A stretch of 39,731 nt of DNA from Actinomycetota bacterium (GTDB lineage: Bacteria > Actinomycetota > Actinomycetes > S36-B12 > CAIYMF01), in contig CANGPO010000018.1 of assembly GCA_947455705.1 (NCBI GenBank), positions 1 through 39,731 on the forward strand. The letters run 5' to 3'. Under the pieces are notes generated by a model, which saw only the letters and a program-made list of their open reading frames with translations, was not told where the DNA came from and did not search any database. This document shows positions 235 to 15,478 of the stretch, in pieces. A program made the translations under genes and the position numbers. Positions within the stretch are counted from its first letter, which is position 1. Each line of letters opens with the position of its first letter.

Positions 235-1833
235 TCAGTCGGTCGCAACAGGTTCTGGAACCCCATATCCACCACCGGCCGCACTGATGAAGGAAACCGA
301 ATCACCCTTCTTAAGCCGGAGGTATCCCTTGCCAGGGAGCGTGGTCCACTCCCCCTCCCCAGACCGTCTGATCATGGCCGCACCAGGAGCACCCGAATGC
401 CCGCCATCTCGGCCTCGAGGCGCAAACTCGGACACCGTCTGCTCCACGTAGTACATGCCGTCGGCATCGTCAGCAAGCAGAGTCATATCTCGGCGCATGG
501 CCATTCCGCCTACAAACTTGCCCGAACCCCCTGATCCGTCGACAAGTTCCGTACGGTCGATCCGCCACGGGTACTCCAGTTCGGCAATCTCCGCCGGAAG
601 GATCGCGCAGTTACTGCAGTACGTGTCCAATGCGTGATCCCCATCGGCATCCCTGCGCGCCCCGCCACCACCGCCGAGGATGTCTGCAAGCAATGTGTCC
701 TTACCCCACCGCGAGTCGTGTGCACGAAACACCCACGCTGGGAATGAGACGTGAGCCGCGGCCACATCCTTGCCGGGAATCAACTGACCAAGCGCTTCGA
801 TCATGAGGTCTGAGATCCGTTGCGTGGCTAGATGACGGGCACTTAGGGCCGCCGGGTGAATCGGATTTACCAGTGTGCCCGGCACCGTCACGATGTCGAT
901 GAGGCGTGACAGGCCATCGTTCTGCCGCACGCCCGAGTCGCCGGCGAAGCAACGAACTGCGAAGTAGACACCAGCGGCAGTACTCGCAATCGGAACATTC
1001 ATCCCGCTCTGAACTTGAGGCGACGTTCCCGTGAAGTCCACAGTGAGTCGACCGTCGACAGGAGTGACGGTGACGCGAATTCGAATGGGGTCGGTGCCTT
1101 CGAATCCCGAGTCGTCCATAAATCCTTCAACTGTCACCGATTCAGTCGGCCACGATCGGAACAGTGCCTCCGCACGCCTCTCAGTGTTGTCGAGGAGACG
1201 TTCCATCGCGTCGAGAACCAGCTCGCGCCCATGCCGAGCGCACAGCTCATTCACTCGCTCAATCCCGCGCTTACAAGCGGCCAACTGTGCCCCGAGATCA
1301 CCGATCGTCGAGTGCGGATCACGGACGTTGTGACGGATGATCTCCTCCACTGCGTGGTTACGTCGTCCACGCTCGACGAACTTAATCGCAGGGAAGATGA
1401 CGCCCTCGTGGTAAATCTCGGTCGTTTGCGCGCTTTCGGTGCCAGGGAACGTGCCACCAATGTCGATGTGATGTGCGATCGAGCCGGCGTATCCGACGAG
1501 CACGTCATCGACGTAGATAGGCATGAAGATCTGCAGATCATTCGTGTGCGTACCACCGAGATATGGATTGTTCGTCAGGATCGCATCCCCAGGATCCAAA
1601 GCTCCACCGTGATTTACCAACGCTGCCTTCAGTGCGAATTGCATGAGGCCGAGCTGCGCTGGAATCTGCTCACTGTGAGAAACCATGCGACCTTGGGCGT
1701 CGAACAAACCGCAGTTGAAGTCAAGCATCTCGCGAATAATCGGCGAGAAAGATGATCGATACTCCACAACGGCCATCTCTTCACTAATCGCAAAGAGGGC
1801 ATTGCCCAGGATCTCCTGAGTTACCGCATCCAT
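235..1833 (-). CDS. hyuB: Hydantoinase/oxoprolinase B subunit (HyuB family)
   Basis: This is a 532-residue HyuB-family protein, the usual size for the B subunit of N-methylhydantoinase, 5-oxoprolinase and acetone carboxylase-type enzymes. The family signature is clear: the LTNNPYLGGTHTND stretch near residue 88, GSIAHHIDIGG near 117, and a C-terminal Gly-rich end (SAAGGGYG). Members work with a HyuA partner to open a cyclic amide ring using ATP. The gene starts three bases after the hyuA stop, so the pair is co-transcribed and probably translationally coupled. The family covers hydantoin, N-methylhydantoin, 5-oxoproline and ketone carboxylation, and the sequence alone does not fix the substrate. 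The amidohydrolases nearby favour a cyclic amide. It is the last gene before the tRNA. Confidence 0.9.
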   Translation of the reverse strand: MDAVTQEILGNALFAISEEMAVVEYRSSFSPIIREMLDFNCGLFDAQGRMVSHSEQIPAQLGLMQFALKAALVNHGGALDPGDAILTNNPYLGGTHTNDLQIFMPIYVDDVLVGYAGSIAHHIDIGGTFPGTESAQTTEIYHEGVIFPAIKFVERGRRNHAVEEIIRHNVRDPHSTIGDLGAQLAACKRGIERVNELCARHGRELVLDAMERLLDNTERRAEALFRSWPTESVTVEGFMDDSGFEGTDPIRIRVTVTPVDGRLTVDFTGTSPQVQSGMNVPIASTAAGVYFAVRCFAGDSGVRQNDGLSRLIDIVTVPGTLVNPIHPAALSARHLATQRISDLMIEALGQLIPGKDVAAAHVSFPAWVFRAHDSRWGKDTLLADILGGGGGARRDADGDHALDTYCSNCAILPAEIAELEYPWRIDRTELVDGSGGSGKFVGGMAMRRDMTLLADDADGMYYVEQTVSEFAPRGRDGGHSGAPGAAMIRRSGEGEWTTLPGKGYLRLKKGDSVSFISAAGGGYGVPEPVATD

Positions 1834-1836
1834 AGC

Positions 1837-3918
1837 TCAGCCCACCAACCGCTCGAGAAGCATCGAACCGCCGGGCACCAGACGAGCCGTCCAGTCGGGA
1901 AATACAAGTGTCGTTGTATCTTCCTGTTCGATCACCGCAGGCCCGGACACGGGTTCAACTCCGATTGCACTTCGGTCAAGAATCACGGCGTCCTGCCATT
2001 CACCCCGCATCCAGACGCGTCGCCTCCCCATTGGTTCCGACGGAACCGAAGATCCCGAGCCAAAAACAATGGGTTCCTCAGGCGCGCTCGCAGTGATGCG
2101 CAGTGCCACCAGTTCCATAGGCGTGTCATCGAGTACGTAGTCATATGCCGCGCGATGTCCTTCGATGAAGGCGGACTCGACTTCTCGGATCGCGTCGTCC
2201 TGCAGACGACCGTTAACGTCCACCCGCAATGGGATCGTCAGGCTGTAAGCCTGTCCGCTGTAGCGCATATCAGCGTTGAACGTCAGTGTTCCGAGGTTCT
2301 CGTGGCCACTCTGCGCAAGTAGCTCACGAGCCTTAGCCGCCAACGCGTCCAGTTGCGGCTGTATCTCGTCGTTCGTGAGGTGGGCCGTTGCACGTACCCA
2401 GCTCCGTCCAAGATCGTGACGGACGGCGGTAAGCAGTAAGCCAAGTGCGGCGGTAACTCCTGGAAATGCGGGCACGAGAACCTTGGCCATGTCGAGTTCC
2501 TCCGCCAATGAGCAGCCATGCATAGGCCCTGCTCCACCGAGTGCCACCAAAGTCATGGCTCGTGGGTCGAGACCACGCGCGACGGAAATCATGCGAAGGG
2601 AACTGGCCATGTTCGCATCGGTTACACGGATGATGGCCGTCGCTGCCTCTTCGACCCCGACTCCCATGGGCAAGGCAACGCGTTGACGAACGGCTTCTGC
2701 AGCGGCATCGGGATCCAACTTGAGCTCACCGCCAAGAGTTCGTTGAGCAGTCAATGTGCCCAGCACGACGTGAGCGTCTGTCACCGTGGGCGATTCACCA
2801 CCACGCGCATATGCGGCCGGACCTGGGACGGCTCCGGCACTTTCCGGGCCAACGTGCAACGCTCCGAACGCATCCACGTGTGCGATCGAGCCACCACCTG
2901 CTCCTACACACAGCACATCAACCTGCGGAAGATTTACACGGTGCCCATTTTGTTCACCGGCCCAACGCACATGTGGATCTCCTGCTGTGACGACGGCCAG
3001 ATCGGCAGTAGTTCCGCCCATATCGAAGGTCATCAAGTCGAGTTCACCCGCAACAGCACCTAGCCTCGCCGCTCCGACAACTCCCGCTGCAGGGCCGGAG
3101 GTCACAAGGGATACGGGGAGTTCAGCCGCTGCCTTGGCTGCAGCCAGGCCTCCATTTGACCTCATGAGATGAACTGGAACCTTGACCCCCCGGGTGGCAA
3201 CGGCCGCGGCGAGATCCGTCACATAGGAACCTACGAGTGGAAGCAATGACGCGTTGACGACCGTGGTGCTGGCGCGCAGGAACTCACGAATCTCCGGAGC
3301 AACATCAGAGGAAATCGTCACCGGGATACCCGGTAACTCGCTTGCCAGAATGTCGCGGATGCGCTGCTCATGCGACGGCTGGACGAATGAGAACAGCAGC
3401 ACCACCGCGATTGCCTCCACGCCAGAGGACGCCAGATATCGCGCTGCCTCAATGACGCTCGGCTCATCCAACGGCGTGATTTCCTCACCCTGCGGCCCAA
3501 TCCGACCATCCACTTCGACGCATCGGTCGCGCGGCACAATGGGTTTGGCCTCGGGGGTCCATAAGTCGTAGATGTGCCGACGCTGCTGGGTGCCGATTTC
3601 CAAGATGTCGCGAAATCCGCGGTTTGTGATCAAACCGACCCGTGCCAGCCGATTCTGCACCAGAGCGTTCGTCGCAACGGTCGTTCCATGAGCAAGGAAG
3701 TTGATCTCGTCTAAGCCGCGGCCGGACCGCCCGCTGAGCACCTGCAAACCCGACAGGAAGCCTTCGGAGATGTCTGCTGGCGTCGATTCAACCTTGGCAA
3801 TGTGCAACTGGCCGGTGTCGTCGACGAGGACTGCATCGGTGAACGTGCCACCAACATCAATTCCAACGCGGACCCCGCTGGTGGCCGTATTCGGATCCCC
3901 GTCGCGCTCGTGAGACAT
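1837..3918 (-). CDS. hyuA: Hydantoinase/oxoprolinase A subunit (HyuA family)
   Basis: This 693-residue protein has the HyuA layout. An N-terminal ASKHA-type domain carries VRVGIDVGGTFTDAV (about residues 17-31) and AHGTTVATNAL. A central hydantoinase A domain has TFDMGGTTADLAVV, CVGAGGGSIA and GPESAGAVPGPAAY. A C-terminal domain follows. The DVGGTFTD and DMGGTTAD motifs form the ATP-binding fold in this family. With HyuB it should hydrolyse a cyclic amide with ATP. The ATG at 3918 is preceded by GGAG five bases upstream. Transcription probably starts in the roughly 130-bp divergent region shared with the LuxR-PBP regulator. The two-part element at 4009-4032 lies 91 bp upstream of this start, which suggests control by that regulator. 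Confidence 0.9.
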   Translation of the reverse strand: MSHERDGDPNTATSGVRVGIDVGGTFTDAVLVDDTGQLHIAKVESTPADISEGFLSGLQVLSGRSGRGLDEINFLAHGTTVATNALVQNRLARVGLITNRGFRDILEIGTQQRRHIYDLWTPEAKPIVPRDRCVEVDGRIGPQGEEITPLDEPSVIEAARYLASSGVEAIAVVLLFSFVQPSHEQRIRDILASELPGIPVTISSDVAPEIREFLRASTTVVNASLLPLVGSYVTDLAAAVATRGVKVPVHLMRSNGGLAAAKAAAELPVSLVTSGPAAGVVGAARLGAVAGELDLMTFDMGGTTADLAVVTAGDPHVRWAGEQNGHRVNLPQVDVLCVGAGGGSIAHVDAFGALHVGPESAGAVPGPAAYARGGESPTVTDAHVVLGTLTAQRTLGGELKLDPDAAAEAVRQRVALPMGVGVEEAATAIIRVTDANMASSLRMISVARGLDPRAMTLVALGGAGPMHGCSLAEELDMAKVLVPAFPGVTAALGLLLTAVRHDLGRSWVRATAHLTNDEIQPQLDALAAKARELLAQSGHENLGTLTFNADMRYSGQAYSLTIPLRVDVNGRLQDDAIREVESAFIEGHRAAYDYVLDDTPMELVALRITASAPEEPIVFGSGSSVPSEPMGRRRVWMRGEWQDAVILDRSAIGVEPVSGPAVIEQEDTTTLVFPDWTARLVPGGSMLLERLVG

Positions 3919-4008
3919 GGCTGCTCCGGTGTTTTGGTATCGATTTGGCCATTATGGTGGCATCTATCCGGTCTTACGGGTTCAATTCGACCTCACGGAA
4001 CGTTCAAT

Positions 4009-4032
4009 GTCATGCGTAATTCGACGGACGGG
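4009..4032 (-). promoter_or_regulatory. Candidate operator, copy 1 (hyuA/regulator divergent region)
   Basis: On the plus strand this reads GTCATGCGT, five bases, then GACGGACGG. The same two 9-mers with the same 5-base spacer recur at 10740-10763. This copy lies 91 bp upstream of the hyuA start and ends three bases before the AGGAGG of the regulator gene. It is therefore placed to act on hyuAB from upstream and to control the regulator itself. That the LuxR-PBP protein binds it is an inference. Confidence 0.6.
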
Positions 4033-4051
4033 TTAGGAGGTGATGGGTCTT

Positions 4052-5845
4052 ATGACTCGCGCGAGTTCTGGCCGGTCTTGGGAATGCACCGTCGACGCTC
4101 TGGGCACATCGTCGGGAACCTCCCGAGCAAGATCGGCCCTCCCCCTTGGTTTAGTCGACTACATCACCGCTTTTCTTCTCACAGAGCATGAGCACGTTCA
4201 GTTTCTATGGAGAACAGTCGAGGGCCGGTGGCTGACCGTCCGGCTAGAGCGAGTTGCACAGCCTTCTGGACGTCAATCCCAGGCACATGTTCATTGGGCC
4301 GTAGCAACTCTCCCCGCCGGACTGACGACCAGGGAAATCGATGTCCTCACGCTGGTCTGTCTCGGACTCACCAACATCCAAATTGCCGAACGGCTCGGCA
4401 ACAGCGCGCGAACCGTCTCCACCCAGGTAGAGCGACTACTTGGCAAGTTGGGTCAGCAAAGCAGAGCAGGGCTGGCTGCCATCGCGGTGGACGCTCGGCT
4501 AGTGCGGCTGCCCCTGCCAGGCGGGTCTTTCGACGAGGCAGGTCTGAGCATTGTTGACGTCGAACGAGCAGTCCATGCACGCAGCCGCGCCATCACAACG
4601 ACTAACACAGCGGACCGTCCTGTAACCCACCACCTGAAGGCTTTACGTCCATCCCTGCGTCGCGCACCTTTCCACATCGGCTCTGTACTACCACTTACCG
4701 GCCCGTCGTGGGCCGATGGTCTCGAAGCGCACCGAGGTGCCGAACTCGCGGTCGCACAGATCAACGCCCGAGGTGGCATTGGCGGCCGTCCAGTCGAACA
4801 CGTTGTTGCCAGCGCCGACTTCTTCAACCCGATCGAGGTCGCCAGCGCCTTTAGATCACTCGTCGATCTAGACGTCGACGCGATCATCACCTCCTACGCG
4901 AACGCAGAATGTCCTGAGGTTCTCGACATAGTCGCTGATTTCGGGCAGCCGTTCTTGCACAACGCAACGTATGAGCAACAGGTCGAGATGGTCCGCGAAG
5001 ATCAGAGTCGATTCGGCATGGTGTTTCAGACGTGTCCGTCGGAAATCCATTACGGTTCGGGGTTTATCCGACTCCTCGACGAGCTTCGCGATAGCGGACA
5101 GTGGACACCAACATCGAGCTCTATCGTGGCGCTTGAGTTGGAGACCAATAGCACCCACACCGCCAATGAAGCATTCTTCAGGGCAGCGGAACGATCCGGT
5201 TGGAATGTTGCCGACGTAGCCATCGTTCCCGTTCAGAACCCGGACTGGAGATCGTTGGTCTCCCGCATCACCAACCATGCTCCGGCCGCGGTCATGATCA
5301 CGCACTTCGTTCCTGACGCACTCGTCGACTTCCAACGCGTGTTCAACGAATTCGGCAACGATGCACTCGTGTATGGGGTGTACGGCCCGTCAATCCCCCA
5401 GTACCAAACGGCTGCCAGAGACGCTTCCGAAGGCGTGATCTGGTCGACCGTCACCGGCATGTACGACGATGAGTTCGGACGGGCGTTCCGACGGGACTTC
5501 GAACGCCTTCACGGCACCCCTGCCGGTTGGTCGCAGGCCAGTGCCGCCTACGACCAGGTCAAGTTGCTTTCGGCGGCGTGGGGCTCCACCGGATCTGCGT
5601 CGTCCGCAGAGGTTCAGCAGTACTTGCGAAGCACGGTGTACCGCGGGGTGAACGGTGTTTACTACCTCGGCGGTCCCGGCCAGGCGGCTCTGTCTTACCC
5701 CGACGTCACACCGGACCCGTCAATTGCACAAGCGCATATGGTCTATCAGGTACAAGACGGACGACCACGGGTACTAGGCCCCGCACCTTACGGTGACTTG
5801 AGATCGTTTAAGACACCACCGTGGTTCGGGAAGAACTCCGCTTAA
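4052..5845 (+). CDS. LuxR-type HTH regulator fused to a periplasmic-binding-protein sensor domain
   Basis: This one-chain protein of about 597 residues combines a DNA-binding and a solute-binding domain. Residues 1-90 are an unassigned N-terminal part. A GerE/LuxR helix-turn-helix covers about 91-146 (LTTREIDVL, then NIQIAERLGNSARTVSTQV). From about 207 to the end is a type I PBP domain like LivJ/AmiC/UrtA (FHIGSVLPLTGP, ELAVAQINARGGIGGRPVE). There is no signal peptide or membrane segment, so it should sense its ligand in the cytoplasm. The PBP part resembles the importer's binding protein at 9270-10664 along its length, sharing the INA(R/N)GGIGGR segment, a CPSE/CPTE segment, the YGPS(I/V)P segment and a PPWF ending. 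AGGAGG at 4035-4040 sits 11 bases before the ATG at 4052 but only 2 before the ATG at 4043, so 4052 is preferred. It is divergent from hyuAB and probably regulates the whole block. Confidence 0.88.
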   Translation: MTRASSGRSWECTVDALGTSSGTSRARSALPLGLVDYITAFLLTEHEHVQFLWRTVEGRWLTVRLERVAQPSGRQSQAHVHWAVATLPAGLTTREIDVLTLVCLGLTNIQIAERLGNSARTVSTQVERLLGKLGQQSRAGLAAIAVDARLVRLPLPGGSFDEAGLSIVDVERAVHARSRAITTTNTADRPVTHHLKALRPSLRRAPFHIGSVLPLTGPSWADGLEAHRGAELAVAQINARGGIGGRPVEHVVASADFFNPIEVASAFRSLVDLDVDAIITSYANAECPEVLDIVADFGQPFLHNATYEQQVEMVREDQSRFGMVFQTCPSEIHYGSGFIRLLDELRDSGQWTPTSSSIVALELETNSTHTANEAFFRAAERSGWNVADVAIVPVQNPDWRSLVSRITNHAPAAVMITHFVPDALVDFQRVFNEFGNDALVYGVYGPSIPQYQTAARDASEGVIWSTVTGMYDDEFGRAFRRDFERLHGTPAGWSQASAAYDQVKLLSAAWGSTGSASSAEVQQYLRSTVYRGVNGVYYLGGPGQAALSYPDVTPDPSIAQAHMVYQVQDGRPRVLGPAPYGDLRSFKTPPWFGKNSA

Positions 5846-5869
5846 CCCGCTCGCTCGGCGAGAGCAGCC

Positions 5870-6901
5870 TTATGTTTTTGTTGACGTCGCCGTCGGTTTT
5901 GACTCTTTCGACTCACCCGCGGACATCCAACTATTGAGCCGTCCCATGCGTCCGGCTAGCAGCGGCACGACGCCGCGCGGCATCAAGACCACGATCGCGA
6001 GCAGCACCAACCCCAACAAGATGAGTCGAATCTCAGGCCAATTCTGAAGTTCGGCCTGGACAAGGGTGATGATCGCTGTTCCGATGAGGGGCCCAGTCAG
6101 GGTTCCGAGGCCTCCGACAACCATCATCGTCACGAGCAGCGTCATCTGGCCCAAGCCCATGAGCGACGGTGATACAACGCCGTAGGTGAAGGCATAAAGC
6201 CCACCAGCGATGCCGGCAAAGAACCCGGAAATCCCGAAGGAAAGCAACTGGTACTTGATCGGGCTGACACCTCGCGCTGCTGCCAGCGACGGGTTGTCTC
6301 GAAGGGCCATCAGCCCGGTGCCTAGAGGTGACCGCACAATGAAGTACATCGCGACCAGGGTGATGATGACGAATGCCAGTGCGATCCAGTAGATCAATCT
6401 GTATCGAGCTTGTGGCTCCATGCTTTGAAGCCCGTATCCGTCGAACCCTGAAAGGCCGAACGTGCCTCCGGTGATACCGGTCTTGTCAGCGATGACCAGC
6501 AACCTGACCACCTCGGAAAACCCGAACGTCAGCAGTGAGACATAGATCCCCCGAAGTCGCACGGAGGGGATGGCCAGTACCAGCGAGACGAGAGTTGCCG
6601 CGAATCCGCCGACCACCAACGCGATTGGCCATGGCAAACCGGTATGCAAGGAGACGAGAGCAGCCGCGTAACCACCGATTGCGTAGATCGCCAGCTGACC
6701 AAAGTTCCAGATACCCGAGTATCCCAAAACCAAGTTCCACGACTGGTTCAACACCATCCAGATGAGCGCCAATGTGCAGACGCCTACCCAGTAACTGCTG
6801 TTCAGGATCATCGGCAGTATTGCTGCAAGGACACCAGCAATGGCCAACGGAATCGGTTTTATCTGCGGCCAGCCAAGGGCGCGTAAAGGTACTGACTTCA
6901 T
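5870..6901 (-). CDS. Branched-chain amino acid/amide-type ABC transporter permease, LivM family
   Basis: A 343-residue polytopic inner-membrane protein with roughly nine to ten hydrophobic segments. It has LivM-family features: NLVLGYSGIWNFGQLAIYAIGGY near residue 55, the conserved (S/N)LVLGYSG-FGQ region of this permease class, and a C-terminal VLMPRGVVPLL. It pairs with the LivH-like permease to form the channel of the importer. Its start overlaps the end of the livH-like gene by four bases (ATGA). It is the last gene of the importer operon and ends 25 bp from the convergent regulator gene. The C-terminal tail (SKESKPTATSTKT) is hydrophilic and cytoplasmic by prediction. The name livM reflects family only; the substrate is unknown. 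Confidence 0.9.
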   Translation of the reverse strand: MKSVPLRALGWPQIKPIPLAIAGVLAAILPMILNSSYWVGVCTLALIWMVLNQSWNLVLGYSGIWNFGQLAIYAIGGYAAALVSLHTGLPWPIALVVGGFAATLVSLVLAIPSVRLRGIYVSLLTFGFSEVVRLLVIADKTGITGGTFGLSGFDGYGLQSMEPQARYRLIYWIALAFVIITLVAMYFIVRSPLGTGLMALRDNPSLAAARGVSPIKYQLLSFGISGFFAGIAGGLYAFTYGVVSPSLMGLGQMTLLVTMMVVGGLGTLTGPLIGTAIITLVQAELQNWPEIRLILLGLVLLAIVVLMPRGVVPLLAGRMGRLNSWMSAGESKESKPTATSTKT

Positions 6902-7785
6902 AGTCGGGCCTCCTGTGGCTTGCCCGCGATCCCGTTAGGACGCACAACGAGTACGACCAAAATCACGATGTAGAGAACGGGTAGGGCGAAGGCACTGGAC
7001 CAGAAGATCGCCACTGCAGAGGACAGGAAGCCGATGATGTACGACGCATAAATCGTGCCCTTGACCGAGCCAAGCCCAGCGAAAATGACGACAATGAGTG
7101 CCTGCAAAAGTGGCAGGTCACCAGCATTGGGATACACGAAGTAAAGCGGAGCTAGGAGCACACCCGCTATACCGGCCAACGCGGCAGCAATTCCCATCGT
7201 CACCACATATACGCGACGAGCCGGGATACCCATAAGCCGTGCCGCATCAAGATTCTGCGCAACAGCAGTGATGGCCAGACCGTACCTAGAACGGGAAAGG
7301 AATAGGCCAAGTGCAACCAACGCTCCCACAGCAAGAACGGCCATGATCATCGAGTGGTACGTGATCGAAACTTCGCTGGTGATGTTGATTCCTCCGGGCC
7401 ACAGTGGGTCGAAGGGCTTCTGTCGTGGTCCGTAGATCATCAGGATGATGTTCTGAACGATCGTGGCCACGGCGAAGGTGGTGATGAACGCGGTCATTTC
7501 AAAGTCCACGCCCGGCCGACCCAGAAGAGGCTTAACGGCCATGTAGTAGGTGAGCACCCCGAGCAGGAACGTGACTGCAGCTGCAACCGCAATGCTGATC
7601 CATGGTGAAACCCCGGTTCGGTCTACAACTGTGTAGGCGGCGAAGCCACCGACCATGACCATGACACCTTGCGCCATGTTCAGCACCCGAAGCGTTCCGT
7701 AAACCAGCGTCATCCCAATGGAGATCAGCGCCAAGATTGAACCCTGAACAATGGTGCTCACGAGCGTCTGCAAAATGGCGTTCAC
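6898..7785 (-). CDS. Branched-chain amino acid/amide-type ABC transporter permease, LivH family
   Basis: A 295-residue hydrophobic permease with about eight membrane segments and the LivH hallmarks LISIGMTLVYGTLRVLNMAQG (about residues 20-40) and FAGLGSVKGTIYASYIIGF near the C-terminus. It forms the transmembrane pore with the LivM-like protein. The start overlaps the preceding ATPase gene by four bases and the stop overlaps the next permease gene by four, so all components are translationally coupled. Within the family, close relatives carry leucine/isoleucine/valine, urea or short-chain amides. The neighbouring amide- and hydantoin-type hydrolases favour the latter kind of substrate here, by inference. 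Confidence 0.9.
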   Translation of the reverse strand: MNAILQTLVSTIVQGSILALISIGMTLVYGTLRVLNMAQGVMVMVGGFAAYTVVDRTGVSPWISIAVAAAVTFLLGVLTYYMAVKPLLGRPGVDFEMTAFITTFAVATIVQNIILMIYGPRQKPFDPLWPGGINITSEVSITYHSMIMAVLAVGALVALGLFLSRSRYGLAITAVAQNLDAARLMGIPARRVYVVTMGIAAALAGIAGVLLAPLYFVYPNAGDLPLLQALIVVIFAGLGSVKGTIYASYIIGFLSSAVAIFWSSAFALPVLYIVILVVLVVRPNGIAGKPQEARL

Positions 7786-8498
7786 GACTCACCACCTACA
7801 CCGAGGTAAGTGGCAGTTACAGCGTCATCGTTGAGGACCTCATCGACGCTTCCCTGCAAAACAACAGCACCGTTTTCGATCAATACAACTCGGTCAGCGA
7901 CTTCGCGAACATGCGCGAAGTTCTCTTCGACAAGTAGAACCGTGATTCCGCTCTTTGCAATTGTCGCGATTCGGTCGTAGACCTCGTCAACAAGCACCGG
8001 TGCCAAACCCAGCGACGGTTCATCGATGAGCAGGAGATCGGCTCGCGTCATCAAACCTCTGCCCAAGGCGAGCATGCGTCGCTCTCCCCCAGACAAGGTC
8101 CGTGCCTGCTGCTCCTTACGTTCGAGCAATCGCGGAAAGATCTCATAGACCTGCGCGAGCCGTTCGAGACGCTCAGAACGCGAAGGTAAAACAAATCCCC
8201 CAAGAAGAAGATTCTCCTGAACAGACATATCGGGAAAGAGCATGTCGCCCTGCGGGATTTGTACGAGCCCCTTGCTGACGATGGACTCAGTTGCCTTTCC
8301 ATCGATGCGTTCACCTCGATAGGTGATGGTCCCGCGCTTGAGTGGAAGCAATCCACTTATCGCCCGCAGGAGTGTTGTCTTGCCGTGGCCGTTCGGTCCG
8401 ATGACGACGACGAATTCGCCCTCGTTCACCGTTAGGCTCATGTCTTCGATGACCATGGCGTCGCCATAGCCCACGCGAAGGTTCTTGACCTCAAGCAT
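7782..8498 (-). CDS. ABC transporter ATP-binding protein, LivF family
   Basis: A 238-residue ATPase with Walker A GPNGHGKTT, signature LSGGERRML, Walker B LLLIDEPSLGLAP and the switch His region (LLVEENFAHV). The ending DEVLNDDAVTATYLGVGG is typical of LivF. I place the start at the ATG at 8498, giving MLEVKNLRVGYG, because GAGGAAGG lies about seven bases upstream. A GTG at 8525 would add nine residues without such a site. The gene overlaps the livG-like gene by eight bases and the livH-like gene by four. It powers the importer together with the LivG-like ATPase. Confidence 0.9.
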   Translation of the reverse strand: MLEVKNLRVGYGDAMVIEDMSLTVNEGEFVVVIGPNGHGKTTLLRAISGLLPLKRGTITYRGERIDGKATESIVSKGLVQIPQGDMLFPDMSVQENLLLGGFVLPSRSERLERLAQVYEIFPRLLERKEQQARTLSGGERRMLALGRGLMTRADLLLIDEPSLGLAPVLVDEVYDRIATIAKSGITVLLVEENFAHVREVADRVVLIENGAVVLQGSVDEVLNDDAVTATYLGVGGES

Positions 8499-9282
8499 CT
8501 GGGGCACCTTCCTCGCGATCCCCACGCCGCCCGAGATAGACGCGGACTACCTCTTCGTCACGCAGAACATCAGCAGGGCTGCCCTGGAAGAGGGTCTTGC
8601 CCTGATTCATAATCAACACGCGGTCGGATAGCGCCATCAACGCTCGCATCACATGCTCGATCAGAACAATCGTGATGCCGCGCTCTTTCACCTTCGACAG
8701 CAGCACCATCAATTCGTCCACCTCTGAGGGAGATAGACCGCCGAAGGGCTCATCGAGGAACAACATCCGAGGTTGCGTCGCCAGCGCAGATGCGATCATC
8801 AGGCGCTTCTTGTCGTACACCGGAAGCGGCCCACCGAGTGCCGACGCCTTCTTAGCCAGGCCGACGAAGATCAGCTCTCGTTTCGCACGATCAAGCATGT
8901 CCGCGTCTGTGCGACCTGCGGTAAACCAACTGCGTGGTTGCCCAAACTGGGCACCAACTAACACATTCGCAAGCGCGGTCTGGGAATCAAATACCGATGG
9001 CAACTGGAATGTACGGGAAATGCCGCGGTGGCAAATGTCGTGCACGGTGGCATCCTGAATCGGCTCACCGGCAAACTCGATGACTCCGTCAGTGGCGCTC
9101 GTAATGCCGGTCACAACGTCAAAGAGCGTGGTCTTACCCGCACCATTAGGTCCGGCGATACCGAAGGTCTCACCTTCGAAGACATCAAAATCGACCCCAT
9201 CGACTGCTGCGAGCCCGCCGTATCGTTTAACGACACCACGAGCCCGCAGCAGCGGGGTCGATGTTGTACTTACTTGAACCAC
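8491..9282 (-). CDS. ABC transporter ATP-binding protein, LivG family
   Basis: A 263-residue ATPase with Walker A GPNGAGKTT, a LivG-type RGISRTFQLPSVF segment, Walker B MLFLDEPFGGLSPSE and switch His in LIEHVM. The usual LSGG signature is not preserved: where Liv ATPases have LSYGxQR, this protein reads LPVYDKKRL, which is unusual and worth checking. The GTG start at 9282 overlaps the end of the binding-protein gene by 13 bases, and no other in-frame ATG or GTG lies before the conserved ARGVVKRYGG. It works as a heterodimer with the LivF-like protein. Confidence 0.87.
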   Translation of the reverse strand: MVQVSTTSTPLLRARGVVKRYGGLAAVDGVDFDVFEGETFGIAGPNGAGKTTLFDVVTGITSATDGVIEFAGEPIQDATVHDICHRGISRTFQLPSVFDSQTALANVLVGAQFGQPRSWFTAGRTDADMLDRAKRELIFVGLAKKASALGGPLPVYDKKRLMIASALATQPRMLFLDEPFGGLSPSEVDELMVLLSKVKERGITIVLIEHVMRALMALSDRVLIMNQGKTLFQGSPADVLRDEEVVRVYLGRRGDREEGAPDA

Positions 9283-10664
9283 GGCGGCGACTGGAACTTG
9301 CCCTGTGCGTATGGCTCTGGGAAGACGGCTACCTGCTTACCGTCCTGAATCTGGTAGGTGAGGTGCGGCATCGCCAAGCTCGGATCGTTAACCAGATCCG
9401 GGTACGGCGCAACCGCCAATTCCGTATCAGAAATCCACTTGTACGTACCGGACACACCGCGGTAAATAACTTGCTTCAGCAACTTGTTTACCTGGGTGAA
9501 GTTATAGGGATCGCCAGCCATTGCTGCTGTCTGCGCCCACAACTTGACCATGTCGTATTCGCCACCGGCCTGTGACAGGCCCGCTTCGGAACCGAACTTG
9601 TTCTTGTAGAGGTCGAGGAACGCCTTACCGGTGTCGTCGGGCAGCGTGCCGATCGTGGTTGACCATACAACTCCGTAGCCGGCTTCCTTGGCCAACTGCA
9701 GGTATTCGGGCACCGACGGTCCGTACTGCTGGTACAGCAGCGACTGCGTGGGCGCATCTCGGAACTGCTTGGCAAAGCTCGCCAAGTCACCAGGGATGTA
9801 GTCGGTGACGTAGATCAGGCCGGGTGGGTTGCTACGAATTTTGGTGAGAATCGGTCCCCAGTCAGCGTTGGGAGCAGTCACTTCTTCGTAAACCGGGACG
9901 GTCCAACCAATGGCCTCTACCGACTTCTTGAAAGCCTGAGCGATCGAGATGCTGTAGGGATCGTTACTGGTCACGATTGCGGCCGTGTTCGACGACGGCT
10001 TCCACGAGCCGTCAGCGATCCACGCCTGCATCAGGGGAACGAAGCCCTTGCCGTACCAGACCTCAGTCGGACAGCCCTCGTAAATGTTCGTGATCTTCTT
10101 CTCGGTCACGTAATCAACGTTGGCTTGCAGCGTGTTGAGGTGAAAAACCGGGACACCCGCGTCAGCGTAAACCGGGAACTCGGTTGAGTCATTCGAGCAG
10201 TAGCCCGAGAAGACAGCAGCAACCTTCTCCTGATTGACCAAGCGCTGCGCCACCTGGACGTAGTTTTCAGGCGCAAGATCAGTCACGTCACCGATCACCA
10301 ACGTGAGCTTGCGTCCACCGATGCCGCCATTGGCATTGATCTCGTCAATGGCAAGTTGCTGACCACGAGTCATTTCTTGACCGTCACCCGAGTACGGGCC
10401 GGTGACTGGGCTAACACTTCCGATCTTGATGTCGCTGGTATCAGCAGTGCCGCCACCACCCGTGCCGCCACCGCTGGTACCGGCATCCTTCGGAGCCAGT
10501 AGGTAGCCAAGTCCGCCACCAACAATCAGGCCACCAACTCCGGCCCCGGTCAGACCCCGAACGAAGTCGCGCCGCGACACGTTCGACGCCGCGTTCTGCA
10601 CCTTGCCGTCGATTTCATCGATCGAGTCCTGAATGTCGTTAGTAATGTCATCGTTCTCAGCCAT
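9270..10664 (-). CDS. Type I substrate-binding protein of the importer, with Tat-like export signal
   Basis: A 464-residue extracytoplasmic solute-binding protein of the LivJ/UrtA/AmiC group. After an acidic N-terminus it has a twin-arginine signal, SRRDFVRGLTG (about 30-40), a Gly-rich hydrophobic stretch, and a Gly/Thr linker. The binding domain begins DIKIGSVSPVTGPYSGDG and contains AIDEINANGGIGGRK. The start at 10664 follows GAGGTGAG directly upstream; an earlier in-frame start at 10712 would add 16 residues. It is the first gene of the importer operon. The protein resembles the sensor half of the LuxR-PBP regulator, ending SPPWFK against TPPWFGK there, so the two probably bind the same compound. 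The divergent upstream region carries the second candidate operator. Confidence 0.92.
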   Translation of the reverse strand: MAENDDITNDIQDSIDEIDGKVQNAASNVSRRDFVRGLTGAGVGGLIVGGGLGYLLAPKDAGTSGGGTGGGGTADTSDIKIGSVSPVTGPYSGDGQEMTRGQQLAIDEINANGGIGGRKLTLVIGDVTDLAPENYVQVAQRLVNQEKVAAVFSGYCSNDSTEFPVYADAGVPVFHLNTLQANVDYVTEKKITNIYEGCPTEVWYGKGFVPLMQAWIADGSWKPSSNTAAIVTSNDPYSISIAQAFKKSVEAIGWTVPVYEEVTAPNADWGPILTKIRSNPPGLIYVTDYIPGDLASFAKQFRDAPTQSLLYQQYGPSVPEYLQLAKEAGYGVVWSTTIGTLPDDTGKAFLDLYKNKFGSEAGLSQAGGEYDMVKLWAQTAAMAGDPYNFTQVNKLLKQVIYRGVSGTYKWISDTELAVAPYPDLVNDPSLAMPHLTYQIQDGKQVAVFPEPYAQGKFQSPPWFK

Positions 10665-10739
10665 ACTCACCTCGCTGCTCAAGCCCATTGATCCGCTCTC
10701 AACGGCGGTCACTTGATCTCACCCCACCGCGACTGGCTC

Positions 10740-10763
10740 GTCATGCGTCAAATGACGGACGGT
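10740..10763 (-). promoter_or_regulatory. Candidate operator, copy 2 (importer/deacetylase divergent region)
   Basis: The plus strand reads GTCATGCGT, five bases, GACGGACGG, identical in both 9-mers and in spacing to 4009-4032. It lies 76 bp upstream of the binding-protein start and 89 bp upstream of the divergent deacetylase gene. Within it, CGTCAT (10739-10744) and ATGACG (10752-10757) form an inverted repeat. On the minus strand TTGACG (10751-10746) could be a -35 element overlapping the site, but no good -10 was seen. Binding by the LuxR-PBP regulator is inferred. Confidence 0.6.
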
Positions 10764-10851
10764 TGCCACGTGACCTGCACGGTAGCGTCGCAATCAGGTG
10801 GGCGATAGCGTTCCCCGTGCAATGACGTGATCCCAAGACAAGGGGCAAACA

Positions 10852-11634
10852 ATGTGGCCTGACTCGGCATCCTGCGCAGCGGTGATCAGCTTCGATTTCG
10901 ACGCCGAAGAGGTCTGGATCGGCGAGGATCCGGCAAATGCCGATCGTCCCGGAACCTTGAGTCAGGGCACGTACGGCGCCAAAGTCGCCGTCCCGGCCAT
11001 TCTCGACATGCTCAAGCGGTTGGAGATCACCGCTTCGTTCTTCATTCCGGGTCGCGTCGCCGAACGGCATCCCCAACGCGTCGAGCAGATCATTGCAGCC
11101 GGCCACGAGGTGGGTCATCACGGCTACACCCACACCTCGCCAACCAAGTTAGGCCCCGAGGGCGAGGAAGCAGAATTAGTCAAAGGACTCGAGATTCTTA
11201 CCTCCCTAGGCGCGACAGTCCGCGGATATCGCTCCCCGTCATGGGACTTCAGCCCCTACACCCTTGATCTGCTGGTCAAACATGGATTCACCTACTCGTC
11301 CAATTTGATGGACGACATGAAGCCCTATCGACACCCCAACCATGATGTGGTTGAACTACCGGTTCACTGGACCTTGGACGATGCACCACATTTCTGGTTT
11401 GACGGTGCCTCATGGAACAAGACCATTCGCACCTCGGCTGAAGTGCGAACACTCTGGGCCGAGGAATTCGCTGGATTCCGCAACATGGGAGGTCTATTCA
11501 TGTTGACGATGCATCCCCAGGTGATCGGGCGTCCCGGCCGTCTACTCATGCTCGAGGAGTTTCTTGGCTGGGTGAAATCCCATTCAGATGTTTGGATCGC
11601 GACCGCCGGCGAGGTTGCGGCGGTTACTCCGTGA
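10852..11634 (+). CDS. Polysaccharide-deacetylase-fold hydrolase, possible cyclic amide/imide hydrolase
   Basis: A 260-residue NodB-fold protein without a signal peptide. It has the motifs SFDFDAEE (residues 13-20), GHEVGHHGYTH (about 85-95, zinc-binding His pair) and RGYRSPSWDFS. These match the cytoplasmic PuuE allantoinase/HpPgdA-like branch rather than exported chitin deacetylases. Characterised relatives act on allantoin, cyclic imides or peptidoglycan. With hyuAB and a nitrilase-type amidohydrolase in the same block, hydrolysis of a C-N bond in a cyclic compound is more likely than cell-wall deacetylation; this is inferred from context. AAGGGG lies six bases before the ATG. The stop overlaps the next gene (GTGA), so it heads an operon with two dehydrogenases. 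Confidence 0.82.
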   Translation: MWPDSASCAAVISFDFDAEEVWIGEDPANADRPGTLSQGTYGAKVAVPAILDMLKRLEITASFFIPGRVAERHPQRVEQIIAAGHEVGHHGYTHTSPTKLGPEGEEAELVKGLEILTSLGATVRGYRSPSWDFSPYTLDLLVKHGFTYSSNLMDDMKPYRHPNHDVVELPVHWTLDDAPHFWFDGASWNKTIRTSAEVRTLWAEEFAGFRNMGGLFMLTMHPQVIGRPGRLLMLEEFLGWVKSHSDVWIATAGEVAAVTP

Positions 11635-12401
11635 CCCGTGCCGCCATCGTCACCGGGGCTGCCCGCGGCCTTGGCCACGGCGTAGCGGTCAGGCTTGCCG
11701 CTGATGGTTGGGCGGTAGCACTAGTAGATCAATCCGAGGATGTTGTGTCCAGCGCCGCGGCGTTAGCCGACGGTGCACACGTGGCTCGCGGTTACGTCCT
11801 TGACGTAAGCGACCCGGATGCATGCATCGCCACAGTTGCAACGATTGTCGACGACCTCGGGCCCATTAGTGGGCTGGTCAACAACGCCGGGATCGGCGGA
11901 CCATCGACCCTCGTGCATCTCACCGACCCGGCCGAATTCAAAAGGGTCATCGACGTGAATCTGCTTGGCCCTTTCCACATGGCTCGTGCCGTTGTGCCGC
12001 AAATGCAAAGCGCGGGCCACGGTGGCTCCATCGTCAACATCACGTCCATCCTCGGACAGCAGGGCGAGGCGGGAACCGGCCCTTACAGCGCATCCAAAGG
12101 TGGCCTTGGGCTGCTAGGCCAAACGATGGCCATGGAACTCGCACGCGACTCGATCCGCGTCAATTCGATCGCACCGGGCAACATGCTCACGGTCATGCAC
12201 GAAGAGCATGTCCAGTGGCTAGCTGACACGAAAAACATCAGTTACGACAAAGCCCTGGACGAAGTGCGCGAGTCGATTCCACTCGGCCGCCACGGAACGG
12301 CCGAAGACATTGCCAACACGGTCGCATGGCTGCTCTCGGCTGACTCGTCCTACGTGACGGGCCAGACCATCGGTGTCAATGGTGGCGTGATCCGCACGTG
12401 A
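11631..12401 (+). CDS. Short-chain dehydrogenase/reductase (SDR) 1
   Basis: A 256-residue classical SDR with the nucleotide-binding TGAARGLG motif, NNAGIGG, catalytic Ser in ITSILG and the YSASK motif (Tyr and Lys), ending SYVTGQTIGVNGGV. It should oxidise an alcohol or reduce a carbonyl with NAD(P). I choose the GTG at 11631, which overlaps the deacetylase stop as GTGA and gives the expected N-terminus (TRAAIVTG); an upstream ATG at 11592 would add 13 unrelated residues inside the previous gene. The gene ends with another GTGA overlap into the second SDR. The substrate is unknown. Confidence 0.9.
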   Translation: MTRAAIVTGAARGLGHGVAVRLAADGWAVALVDQSEDVVSSAAALADGAHVARGYVLDVSDPDACIATVATIVDDLGPISGLVNNAGIGGPSTLVHLTDPAEFKRVIDVNLLGPFHMARAVVPQMQSAGHGGSIVNITSILGQQGEAGTGPYSASKGGLGLLGQTMAMELARDSIRVNSIAPGNMLTVMHEEHVQWLADTKNISYDKALDEVRESIPLGRHGTAEDIANTVAWLLSADSSYVTGQTIGVNGGVIRT

Positions 12402-13135
12402 CCACAGGGCCAAGTAATCTCGTCGTCACCGGTGCCGGATCAGGAATCGGTCAGGCCGTCTGCCAACTAGCTCAGGCCGCGGGAGTAAACGTGTTCGGAA
12501 TCGATCGAGACGCGCACGGTCTTGCTCAAACCCAGGCTCAAACCGGTGCGGGTATCGCGGTCTGCGATGTGACGGATGAGGCAGCATTGATCCGAGCAAT
12601 GGATTCAGCTGTGGAGCACTTCGATGGACCACCCGATGCATTGGTCGCCGCTGCCGGTATCTACCGAATCGCCGCCGCGCACGATATCTCTGCCCAGGCG
12701 TTCGCTGATTTGCTCGCTATCAACGTCGTTGGCGCATTCGTATCGGCCCGCGAAGTTGCGACGAGATGTGTCGATGGTGCGTCCATCGTTCTTATCGCGT
12801 CCATGGCCTACGAAGCGGGCGATACAAACGAACCCGCCGCCCATTACACAGCCAGCAAAGGCGCAATCGTCTCTCTGACACGACAACTCGCAGTGGAGTG
12901 GGCAGACCGCGGAATCCGGGTAAACGCGGTGAGTCCCGGGGTAATTCACACACCCATGCTCAGACTCGTAGACAATCCGGTGAAGGCTGCCGCATACCTT
13001 GAATCCGGGGTTCCACTGCATCGATTCGGGACCGCGACCGAAGTTGCGAATGCGTGCATGTTCCTGCTCGGCAGCAGCGCGTCCTACATCACGGGAGTGA
13101 TCCTGCCCGTCGACGGTGGCGCAACCATTTCCTAG
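12398..13135 (+). CDS. Short-chain dehydrogenase/reductase (SDR) 2
   Basis: A 245-residue classical SDR with TGAGSGIG near the N-terminus, AAAGIYR in place of the usual NNAG, Ser in LIASMAYEAG and catalytic YTASKGA, ending SYITGVILPVDGG. The GTG start overlaps the first SDR's stop, so the three genes from 10852 are translationally coupled. Two consecutive SDRs may act on successive intermediates or form a hetero-oligomer. The unusual AAAG in the NNAG position still occurs in functional SDRs. The substrate is unknown. Confidence 0.9.
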   Translation: MTTGPSNLVVTGAGSGIGQAVCQLAQAAGVNVFGIDRDAHGLAQTQAQTGAGIAVCDVTDEAALIRAMDSAVEHFDGPPDALVAAAGIYRIAAAHDISAQAFADLLAINVVGAFVSAREVATRCVDGASIVLIASMAYEAGDTNEPAAHYTASKGAIVSLTRQLAVEWADRGIRVNAVSPGVIHTPMLRLVDNPVKAAAYLESGVPLHRFGTATEVANACMFLLGSSASYITGVILPVDGGATIS

Positions 13136-13190
13136 CCCTTGATCGTCGCTCCGGCCGCGTGTGGCCCTGACTGATTGGTATTGACCGACT

Positions 13191-14210
13191 ATGACTATCG
13201 AACTTGGATACGGGCTCGTAACCTGCCAACGACATCCCGATCACGATGCTGGGTGGCCCGTGCTTTATGCGGAGGCATTGGGGCTGGCTTCGGCGGTCGA
13301 GGATGCGGGATTGGCATCAATTTGGGTAAGTGAGCATCACTTCGTCGGCGATGGACATCTACCGTCACTGCTCCCCCTTTTGGCTGCGATGGCGGCACGG
13401 ACATCACGGATTACCGTTGGTACTGCTCTACTTTTGGCACCTCTCTACGATCCGCTGAGATTGGTTGAAGATGCCAACGTCGTCGATCAAATCAGCGGTG
13501 GACGTCTCGTGCTGGGGCTTGGCTTAGGCTGGCGGGATGAGGAGTTCGAAGCCCTCTCCGTCCCACAAGGAGAGCGAGTACGACGGCTTGTCGAGTTCAT
13601 TCGCATCGCACGACAATCAGCCCTCGACGAACCAATCGACCTGCCCGACGAGCGTGCCCGTCCTTACATCACACCAGACTCAGTGCAACCCGCAGGGGTG
13701 CCGCTGTGGATCGGGGCCTTGGCTGAACCAGCGATCCGTCGCGCTGGTCGCCTGTCCGATGGATTCATGGCAACGGAGGTCACGCCAAGCGAACTTGCTG
13801 AGCAGGTGTCATGGGCCCGCGAAGACTATGCAGCCTCAGGCCGCCAAACCCCGTTCACGATTTCGTTGCACCTGCCGACCCTGTGCCACCAAGACGGGGT
13901 GGACTGGAACACCGCCAAGGATGCTCTCGGTTACCCGAACTGGAAGTACGAAGACATGTACGCCGCTCGCAGTGATTCCGGACCGCTCGGACGTCCCAGC
14001 CAGCTAACGGAGCAGGAAGAGACCCGCCTGCGCGAGACATCCATCGTCGGCACTCCCGCCGAAGTGGCCGACCGGATTCGCGAATACGCAGACGCAGCCG
14101 GCGGCGACCTGCACATGATCGCTCGCTCGTACTTACCGAGCCTGACTGCGCAGGAACGTGCCGATGCTGTACAGGCACTCGGCGCCGTAAACGGACTGCT
14201 GAGCAGCTAA
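13191..14210 (+). CDS. LLM-class flavin-dependent oxidoreductase (luciferase-like monooxygenase)
   Basis: A 339-residue bacterial-luciferase-fold protein. It shows SIWVSEHHF (about 43-51), RITVGTALLLAPLYDP, DQISGGRLVLGLGLGW and VGTPAEVADRI near the C-terminus, all typical of FMN- or F420-dependent enzymes of this family. It probably oxidises an intermediate of the same pathway; RutA, which opens the uracil ring, is a precedent within the fold for attack on a cyclic amide. It follows SDR2 after 55 bp and has no strong ribosome binding site. TATTGA ends seven bases before the ATG, so a leaderless transcript is possible but not shown. It converges with the nitrilase gene 12 bp downstream. Confidence 0.88.
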   Translation: MTIELGYGLVTCQRHPDHDAGWPVLYAEALGLASAVEDAGLASIWVSEHHFVGDGHLPSLLPLLAAMAARTSRITVGTALLLAPLYDPLRLVEDANVVDQISGGRLVLGLGLGWRDEEFEALSVPQGERVRRLVEFIRIARQSALDEPIDLPDERARPYITPDSVQPAGVPLWIGALAEPAIRRAGRLSDGFMATEVTPSELAEQVSWAREDYAASGRQTPFTISLHLPTLCHQDGVDWNTAKDALGYPNWKYEDMYAARSDSGPLGRPSQLTEQEETRLRETSIVGTPAEVADRIREYADAAGGDLHMIARSYLPSLTAQERADAVQALGAVNGLLSS

Positions 14211-14221
14211 TCTTGCGTTGG

Positions 14222-15418
14222 TTATTCGTCTTCCCACATCGTCTTGATGTTGTTCCAGTCTGCATCGGCAGGATCCTGCGATGGCGCGAAGTAGCGACTT
14301 CCTTCGTGCGCAGTGGCCGGCGGTGTCCAACTACCCCGCTCCTGCAGTCGACGGATGTTCGCTCGGTACACCTCGTCCACGTCAGCATGCTGCTTGGGAT
14401 CTTCGTTAAGCCACAGATTGGGCGGATGAATCGACTGCGCATACATGTCGCGGAACAGTTCGGTCCGCAGATCCTTCATCCAGTTCGAGTTCAGGTTCAT
14501 CGCTCGAAATTGGCGTAGCGCCTCAATGTCGATGATTCCGGCGGTGAATGAGTTCGCGCCACCCCGGGCTAGCCCGAGAACATTTCCTTGATAGTCGACG
14601 ACGTGTCCATTGCCACCACCGATGTCATAGGGATGTTCCATCTTTGGATGCACGTACACAGGTCCGACGTTCGGGCACACCATGTAGACGTTATTGAAAT
14701 GAGCATGTGCGCGGTTCTGCAGCAACCAGGTTCCACCGGCGTCGGGGCCAAGTTGCGTCATCGGAACCGCTTCTGACGGACGGTAAATCACCTCTGCCCC
14801 ATTGAACGCAAGTGCCCGAACAGCCTCCGGATACTCGCCGTCTGAGCAGCAGATGGTTCCGATGTTGCCGATGTCGTCGGTACGCAGCACTGGGTAGAAC
14901 GACTCGATGCCATCGCCGAAGAGCTCAACCCAGCGGTCATAGATATCGTGCGGAGTGCACGAGCGCTCACGGCACCAGAGATGATTCTTCGCAGCCTTAT
15001 GGACGATCTCACCCTGTGGTGAAATGACGAACAGCATGTTGAAAAAGCGGTCGGGCATCACCTCGGGCCAGCGGGCCTTGCACTGGACGATGATGTACGT
15101 GTTGTACAACTTCGCTAATGATGCCAACCGTTCCGTCTCGGGCCCAGGAAGGTCGATGAACAGTTCTCGAGCCGCGACGACGTGCGGAATGTCAAAAATC
15201 TCATCGGTGAAGCCGGTAAGCGCACCCTCGGCCAACGCAATCATGCGCACCGGCATGTTGATTCCAATGATGGAAACGGCAGCGTGAATCGCATCTTCGA
15301 TGATGTCGAGGTTGCGATCAATATCCTTGCGCGAACCAATGCCGTGGACGACGGTCGACAGTCCAACCGCCATGTACGGCGCTACCGGCTGCTTCTTCTT
15401 CGGTGTGCGAGTGGCCAT
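14222..15418 (-). CDS. Nitrilase-superfamily carbon-nitrogen hydrolase
   Basis: A 398-residue amidohydrolase with the Glu-Lys-Cys triad visible: Glu in ALAEGALTG, Lys in HKAAKNHLW and Cys in GTICCSDGEYPEA. It is longer than the roughly 280-350 residues common in the superfamily, with an extra C-terminal segment (ANIRRLQERGSW onward). Relatives hydrolyse amides, N-carbamoyl compounds, formamide or nitriles. An N-carbamoyl or amide product of the HyuAB or deacetylase-fold step is a plausible substrate, by inference. The ATG at 15418 is preceded by AGAGGAT about nine bases upstream; starts at 15427 and 15454 are less well supported. It is convergent to the flavin monooxygenase and downstream of der on the same strand. 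Confidence 0.87.
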   Translation of the reverse strand: MATRTPKKKQPVAPYMAVGLSTVVHGIGSRKDIDRNLDIIEDAIHAAVSIIGINMPVRMIALAEGALTGFTDEIFDIPHVVAARELFIDLPGPETERLASLAKLYNTYIIVQCKARWPEVMPDRFFNMLFVISPQGEIVHKAAKNHLWCRERSCTPHDIYDRWVELFGDGIESFYPVLRTDDIGNIGTICCSDGEYPEAVRALAFNGAEVIYRPSEAVPMTQLGPDAGGTWLLQNRAHAHFNNVYMVCPNVGPVYVHPKMEHPYDIGGGNGHVVDYQGNVLGLARGGANSFTAGIIDIEALRQFRAMNLNSNWMKDLRTELFRDMYAQSIHPPNLWLNEDPKQHADVDEVYRANIRRLQERGSWTPPATAHEGSRYFAPSQDPADADWNNIKTMWEDE

Positions 15419-15478
15419 GGGTCGCATCCTCTGACGTCCAGCCCGCAAGGGCAAGTGCGCGCGCCGAAACGATCCTTG

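Follow-up and report, generated by a model that had tools for sequence, protein, structure and literature searches.

The window, that is, the whole stretch of 39,731 nucleotides that was analysed, contains a gene for a LuxR-PBP regulator (4052..5845, plus strand), in which a GerE helix-turn-helix (HTH) is followed by a Peripla_BP_6 sensor and in the sequence of which no export signal is seen. On one side of it lie hyuA (1837..3918, minus strand), encoding an alpha subunit like that of ATP-dependent hydantoinases, oxoprolinases and caprolactamases, and hyuB (235..1833, minus strand), encoding the beta subunit. On the other side, an importer operon of the branched-chain amino-acid/urea type is found, with the gene of the binding protein (9270..10664, minus strand) as its first gene, followed by those of the ATPases and permeases (5870..9282, minus strand). 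The binding protein has a Tat-like leader (RRDFVRG) and a Peripla_BP_6 domain, and is 34% identical to the sensor of the regulator. Beyond it, genes on the plus strand encode a PuuE-like hydrolase of the polysaccharide-deacetylase fold, two SDRs and a luciferase-like monooxygenase (LLM) (10852..14210). A carbon-nitrogen hydrolase gene is situated at 14222-15454, between the LLM gene and der; a search of the corresponding stretches from two congeners gave no homologue of it. At the contig end (39480-39727), there is a degenerate tandem repeat, made up of numerous direct-repeat copies that overlap, which may lie in coding sequence.

The regulator is a single fused protein. Its GerE domain (PF00196, 3.6e-12) is also present in six further homologues, and its profile matches the NarL, DevR and VraR chains. 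Pfam scans give only GerE and PBP domains, with no receiver domain, no autoinducer-binding domain and no ANTAR match. The PBP domain is preceded by about 90 residues and the HTH and, judged by eye, the protein does not look like an exported one. Of the solved sequences, that of 3h5l, a putative binding protein for branched-chain amino acids, is closest to the sensor. With respect to the enzymes, HyuA scores 522 bits to CapA, which is below the equivalog cut-off. The combination of HyuAB, the PuuE-like hydrolase, the LLM and, in several relatives, a carbon-nitrogen hydrolase suggests that the substrate of the cluster belongs to the cyclic amides, imides or ureides. Carbon-nitrogen hydrolase genes similar to that of the window accompany LuxR-PBP genes in Paenarthrobacter, Agrobacterium and the actinomycetes G221 and G327.

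A sequence-only reading of this DNA had drawn attention to a two-part, 23-bp element in front of hyuA and of the importer operon, and had proposed it as the operator of the regulator. Two exact copies of GTCATGCGT-N5-GACGGACGG are indeed present in the plus strand, at 4009-4031 and 10740-10762, with all 18 fixed bases identical and both copies intergenic. The distances given to the start codons, 91 bp for hyuA (ATG 3918) and 76 bp for the binding-protein gene (ATG 10664, with GAGGTGAG ahead of it), are also correct, and copy A does end just 5' of the ribosome binding site of the regulator, AGGAGGTGAT; the best start of the regulator gene is ATG 4052 rather than GTG 4040. The assertion that a chance match in 40 kb is very unlikely is somewhat overstated. 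In 60 Markov resamples, in which two common exact 9-mers with an equal gap of 0-15 were counted per window, 0.03 such matches are expected for a gap of 5, and about 0.28 per window for any gap in that range. Taken alone, the 23-bp repeat is weak evidence, being only moderately unlikely by chance; it owes its significance to its conservation between species.

The description as a two-part direct motif has to be corrected as well. The element consists of an imperfect inverted repeat of 20 bp, with consensus CATNCGTCA-N2-TGACGNATG, the centre of which falls inside the supposed 5-bp spacer. Its inner part has the 7-2-7 layout that is typical of NarL/LuxR-type proteins; as a sequence pattern, TSCGTCA-N2-TGACGSA, with inverted heptamers 2 bp apart, is exact at site B and at sites in three distant genomes (f55) described below. 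Predicted operator B (10742..10761), CATGCGTCA-AA-TGACGGACG, has 1 mismatch to the consensus and faces both the importer operon (minus strand) and the deacetylase operon (plus strand), the latter of which is a predicted target. Site A is degenerate (3-4 mismatches): predicted operator A (4011..4030, minus strand) reads CATGCGTAA-TT-CGACGGACG, has 3 mismatches to the consensus and turns its activating side towards hyuA, its predicted target.

The element is not widespread in its own genome: a search of all 2.98 Mb (154 contigs) gives no exact copy beyond the two. Seven WhiB-family matches in this genome mark its owner as an actinobacterium. The core GTSRNWTKACGCATGAC is found at 0-1 mismatch only at the two sites; at 2 mismatches, 17 sites are found versus 14 for a reversed-pattern control. 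The next-best match to the element (2 mismatches, contig C5) lies in the fliR/flhB coding overlap and was dismissed as chance. Two low-mismatch sites in congeners were also set aside: that in G010 (1 mismatch) is located at the end of sucD in a genome without the cluster, and that in G011 is away from the cluster homologues.

Within the genus, the regulator is found in only 2 of the 10 other genomes (G013 and G015; 67-71% identity). Both have the whole syntenic cluster, in the order hyuBA, regulator, permeases, ATPases and binding protein, followed by deacetylase, SDR, SDR and LLM, and both elements stand at equivalent places in them. In gapless alignments of the three species, 17 of 21 columns are identical in element A versus 23 of 139 in its flanks; for element B, these values are 19 of 21 and 11 of 139. 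The element is thus conserved where the regulator is conserved, and this extends to the f55 genomes and to a scan of the phylum.

Profile searches revealed full-length regulator homologues (GerE and Peripla_BP_6) in three f55 genomes of another class (G588, G527 and G608; 45% identity), and also in a few large-genome actinomycetes (G221, G327 and G438). Between the two classes, the regulators are 45-49% identical and the importer binding proteins 49-54%. The PBP domain of the regulators is only 32-38% identical to the importer binding proteins, within as well as across genomes; this lower identity indicates that sensor and receptor are old paralogues that have stayed together. The three f55 genomes have an equal gene set in a different order. 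Their gap between the regulator and binding-protein genes contains a perfect palindrome, CATCCGTCA-AA-TGACGGATG, and the element of the window is, on sequence comparison, the same object. Further perfect or near-perfect copies precede the deacetylase operon and, in G608, also hyuA; the hyuA gene of G588 is preceded by a degenerate version. G608 has exactly three exact sites in its genome, and these are the ones before pbp, the deacetylase operon and hyuA. The cluster of this genome is split over contigs C56 and C165, and the operator before hyuA helps to join them. In the f55 clusters, a gene resembling acyl-CoA:6-APA acyltransferase (AAT, PF03417) lies between sdr2 and llm, and a reading frame of similar size has the same place in G013 (L090:3122-4282, L092:6084-7253; L059:16489-17616); there is no room for such a gene at this place in the window.

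Among 396 genomes of the phylum, ten sites with at most one mismatch to the consensus occur in six genomes: eight are cluster operators in four regulator-bearing genomes, and two are isolated, in genomes without the regulator. Of the genomes that carry the regulator, 4 of 4 thus have such sites, versus 2 of 392 of the others (Fisher 1.5e-8), it being understood that site and whole cluster co-occur as a block and that the counts are not independent, the f55 genomes being relatives of one another.

The association extends to plasmids. On the Paenarthrobacter plasmid pYJND-2 (NZ_CP053551.1), which came from a protein search and is out of sample, CATTCGTCATTTGACGTATG has 0 mismatches to the consensus and is the only palindrome with 8-bp arms between the LuxR-PBP gene and the divergent carbon-nitrogen hydrolase/deacetylase genes. 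In an Agrobacterium plasmid relative (CP115909.1), a different palindrome of equal size, CATACGCATTAACGCGTATG, precedes the carbon-nitrogen hydrolase/deacetylase genes (L108:9840-9859). Its outer arms match and its inner bases are changed, possibly a shift in specificity that is tied to a divergent recognition helix. In G221 and G327, only a variant palindrome, CGTCGGTCA-N2-TGACCGACG, is present, without a recognisable -10; a search for more members of the G221 family gave none further, and no operator was found in the gap between the regulator gene and hyuA of G438. Plasmid pPAN2 of Paracoccus pantotrophus has, beside hyuAB, a LuxR-PBP-like reading frame in pieces (L110:10001-11614), which is probably a decaying copy. 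Distant LuxR-HTH matches from named genomes were rejected: the one inspected (L034) is a large ATPase-type LuxR protein without a PBP domain. The public records of the Paenarthrobacter and Agrobacterium plasmids label the LuxR-PBP genes (L109:11658-13415 in NZ_CP053551.1 and L108:11983-13731 in CP115909.1) as "ABC transporter substrate-binding protein". This transport-protein label on the regulators is probably a systematic misannotation.

The sites also have a regular position with respect to putative promoters. A -10-like hexamer is found 29 or 30 nt from the palindrome centre in 17 of 19 catabolic directions, 11 of them with a canonical TAnnnT, and in 0 of 12 regulator or other directions, the -10 pattern having been set post hoc, after the sites had been viewed. 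The two failures are the G221 and G327 sites. In the window, the putative -10 hexamers are TCGAAT for hyuA (3985..3990, minus strand; 29 nt from the centre of A), TGAGAT for the importer (10716..10721, minus strand; 29 nt from the centre of B) and TAGCGT for the deacetylase operon (10783..10788, plus strand; 30 nt from the centre of B). Their counterparts are TCGAAT, TGGGAT and TACCGT in G015 and TGGAAT, TGAGAT and TAGCGT in G013. In the f55 genomes, the hexamers are TACGGT, TAGGGT and TAATGT for pbp, TACGGT, TATCGT and TATCCT for the deacetylase operon, and TATCGT and TAGCGT for hyuA. Those of hyuA and pbp in the genus (TSGAAT and TGRGAT) are weaker, without A at position 2. The Paenarthrobacter plasmid, which is outside the count of 19, has CATAGT at 29 nt on the catabolic side and GATACT at 28 nt on the regulator side.

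When the -10 is taken as -12 to -7, the operator is centred at -42.5 or -43.5. On its simplest reading, this spacing fits an activator site that is centred near -42.5 and adjoins the -35. NarL of E. coli sits at -38 to -47 of yeaR, and NarL-type proteins bind 7-2-7 sites (PMC4549865). With a -10 on both sides, site B is expected to drive expression in both directions, that of the importer on one side and that of the deacetylase-SDR-LLM operon on the other. The latter operon had been included in the regulon only as a perhaps; its inclusion now gains support from a correctly spaced TAnnnT hexamer across B from the importer, conserved in three species, and from the three distant genomes, in which it has a palindrome of its own. 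The regulator had been included with similar reserve, and here direct self-activation is unsupported, as in none of six genomes does a -10 stand at the activating distance. Self-repression through site A is a speculative alternative.

Sequence comparison thus supports the earlier proposal: very probably, the LuxR-PBP regulator has its operator in this element, with hyuAB and the importer in the local regulon, whatever the sign of the regulation. That it serves for activation as well is likely, at a lower degree of confidence. An origin in chance or recent duplication, without any regulatory role, might be argued from the rate at which two 9-mers with a freely chosen gap recur in a window; it is already refuted by the retention of the element at homologous places in three species with diverged flanks and by its presence in another class, and its probability is negligible. 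Only slightly more credit can be given to an RNA element, that is, a hairpin, terminator or riboswitch in leader transcripts. The palindrome could fold as a hairpin if transcribed; however, the inferred -10 boxes come after it, which places it outside the predicted catabolic transcripts, so that only the transcript of the regulator could include it.

It could also be imagined that an unlinked transcription factor other than LuxR-PBP, serving the same pathway, uses the element as its operator, in keeping with the lack of a consensus site in the LuxR-PBP relatives G438, G221 and G327. This is improbable, since no DNA-binding gene other than LuxR-PBP was recognised in the cluster, the sites accompany that gene from class to class and also on a plasmid, and half-sites arranged as 7-2-7 suit its HTH class. 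Less remote, and still unlikely, is a repressor operator, with the apo regulator blocking the promoters and the ligand releasing it. The fusion of a PBP-type sensor to an HTH recalls the LacI-type repressors, which act in this manner, and the site lies next to the -35 region or overlaps with it. Against such repression, the centre lies 29-30 nt upstream of the -10, which is the activating position of NarL at yeaR and napF (PMC4549865), and not over -10/+1; furthermore, the hyuA and pbp promoters of the genus look weak, as is expected where an activator is needed.

Under activation by LuxR-PBP, the ligand of the cytosolic PBP domain would be a cyclic amide or ureide that has been imported, or a product close to it, and the liganded regulator would occupy the palindrome in dimeric form, with its centre near -42.5/-43.5, and recruit RNA polymerase to weak promoters in class II fashion. 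Site A would thereby activate hyuAB, and site B the importer and the deacetylase-SDR-LLM operon divergently. More speculatively, regulator bound at A, directly before its own ribosome binding site, could limit its own synthesis. As the sensor is a paralogue of the receptor of the importer, the compound that is taken up, or one near to it, is expected to be the inducer, and the ligand of either protein would point to the substrate of the pathway. Given the ligand, biosensors for cyclic amides could be built with the operator as a part. A two-copy motif has led to predictions of the operator, the regulon and the promoter geometry that go with an architecture of LuxR HTH and Leu/Ile/Val-type PBP. 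On balance, it seems fairly probable that LuxR-PBP regulators govern entire catabolic clusters by way of a single conserved 20-bp operator, situated around -42.5 and in one copy bidirectional for two divergent operons, in at least two classes of Actinomycetota, with the architecture also present on a Pseudomonadota plasmid. In the open-licence literature searched, no earlier description of the LuxR-PBP fusion family was found.

Several known systems share elements of this arrangement. E. coli XylR and the LacI-type regulators are one-component proteins in which, as in LuxR-PBP, an HTH is fused with a sensor of the type I PBP fold; they combine an AraC- or LacI-type HTH with a sugar-binding PBP, whereas here a LuxR HTH is joined to the Leu/Ile/Val-amide class (Peripla_BP_6). 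AmiC is a cytosolic protein of the Peripla_BP_6 class that senses amides for a catabolic operon, and LuxR-PBP has weak sequence similarity to its chain. However, AmiC and the RNA-binding antiterminator that it restrains (AmiR) are separate proteins, while here sensor and DNA-binding domain form one chain. The lux box of LuxR, a 20-bp inverted repeat centred near -42.5, is used by an ambidextrous, class II activator. Size, symmetry and predicted position are alike here, but the operator sequence is different and the regulator lacks an autoinducer-binding domain. With the CapAB cluster of Pseudomonas jessenii (PMC6061476), hyuAB shares the family of ATP-dependent lactam/hydantoin hydrolases; the neighbouring enzymes differ, and a match in substrate is not implied. 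Finally, the NarL/FixJ proteins at 7-2-7 sites, such as E. coli NarL at yeaR and napF (PMC4549865), have in common with LuxR-PBP the GerE HTH and, as far as the predicted operator goes, inverted heptamers with 2 bp between them at a place just before the -35. In contrast to them, LuxR-PBP is without a receiver domain and has a C-terminal PBP domain as its sensor, and its predicted half-site is CGTCA instead of the NarL heptamer, in a palindrome that extends to 9-2-9.
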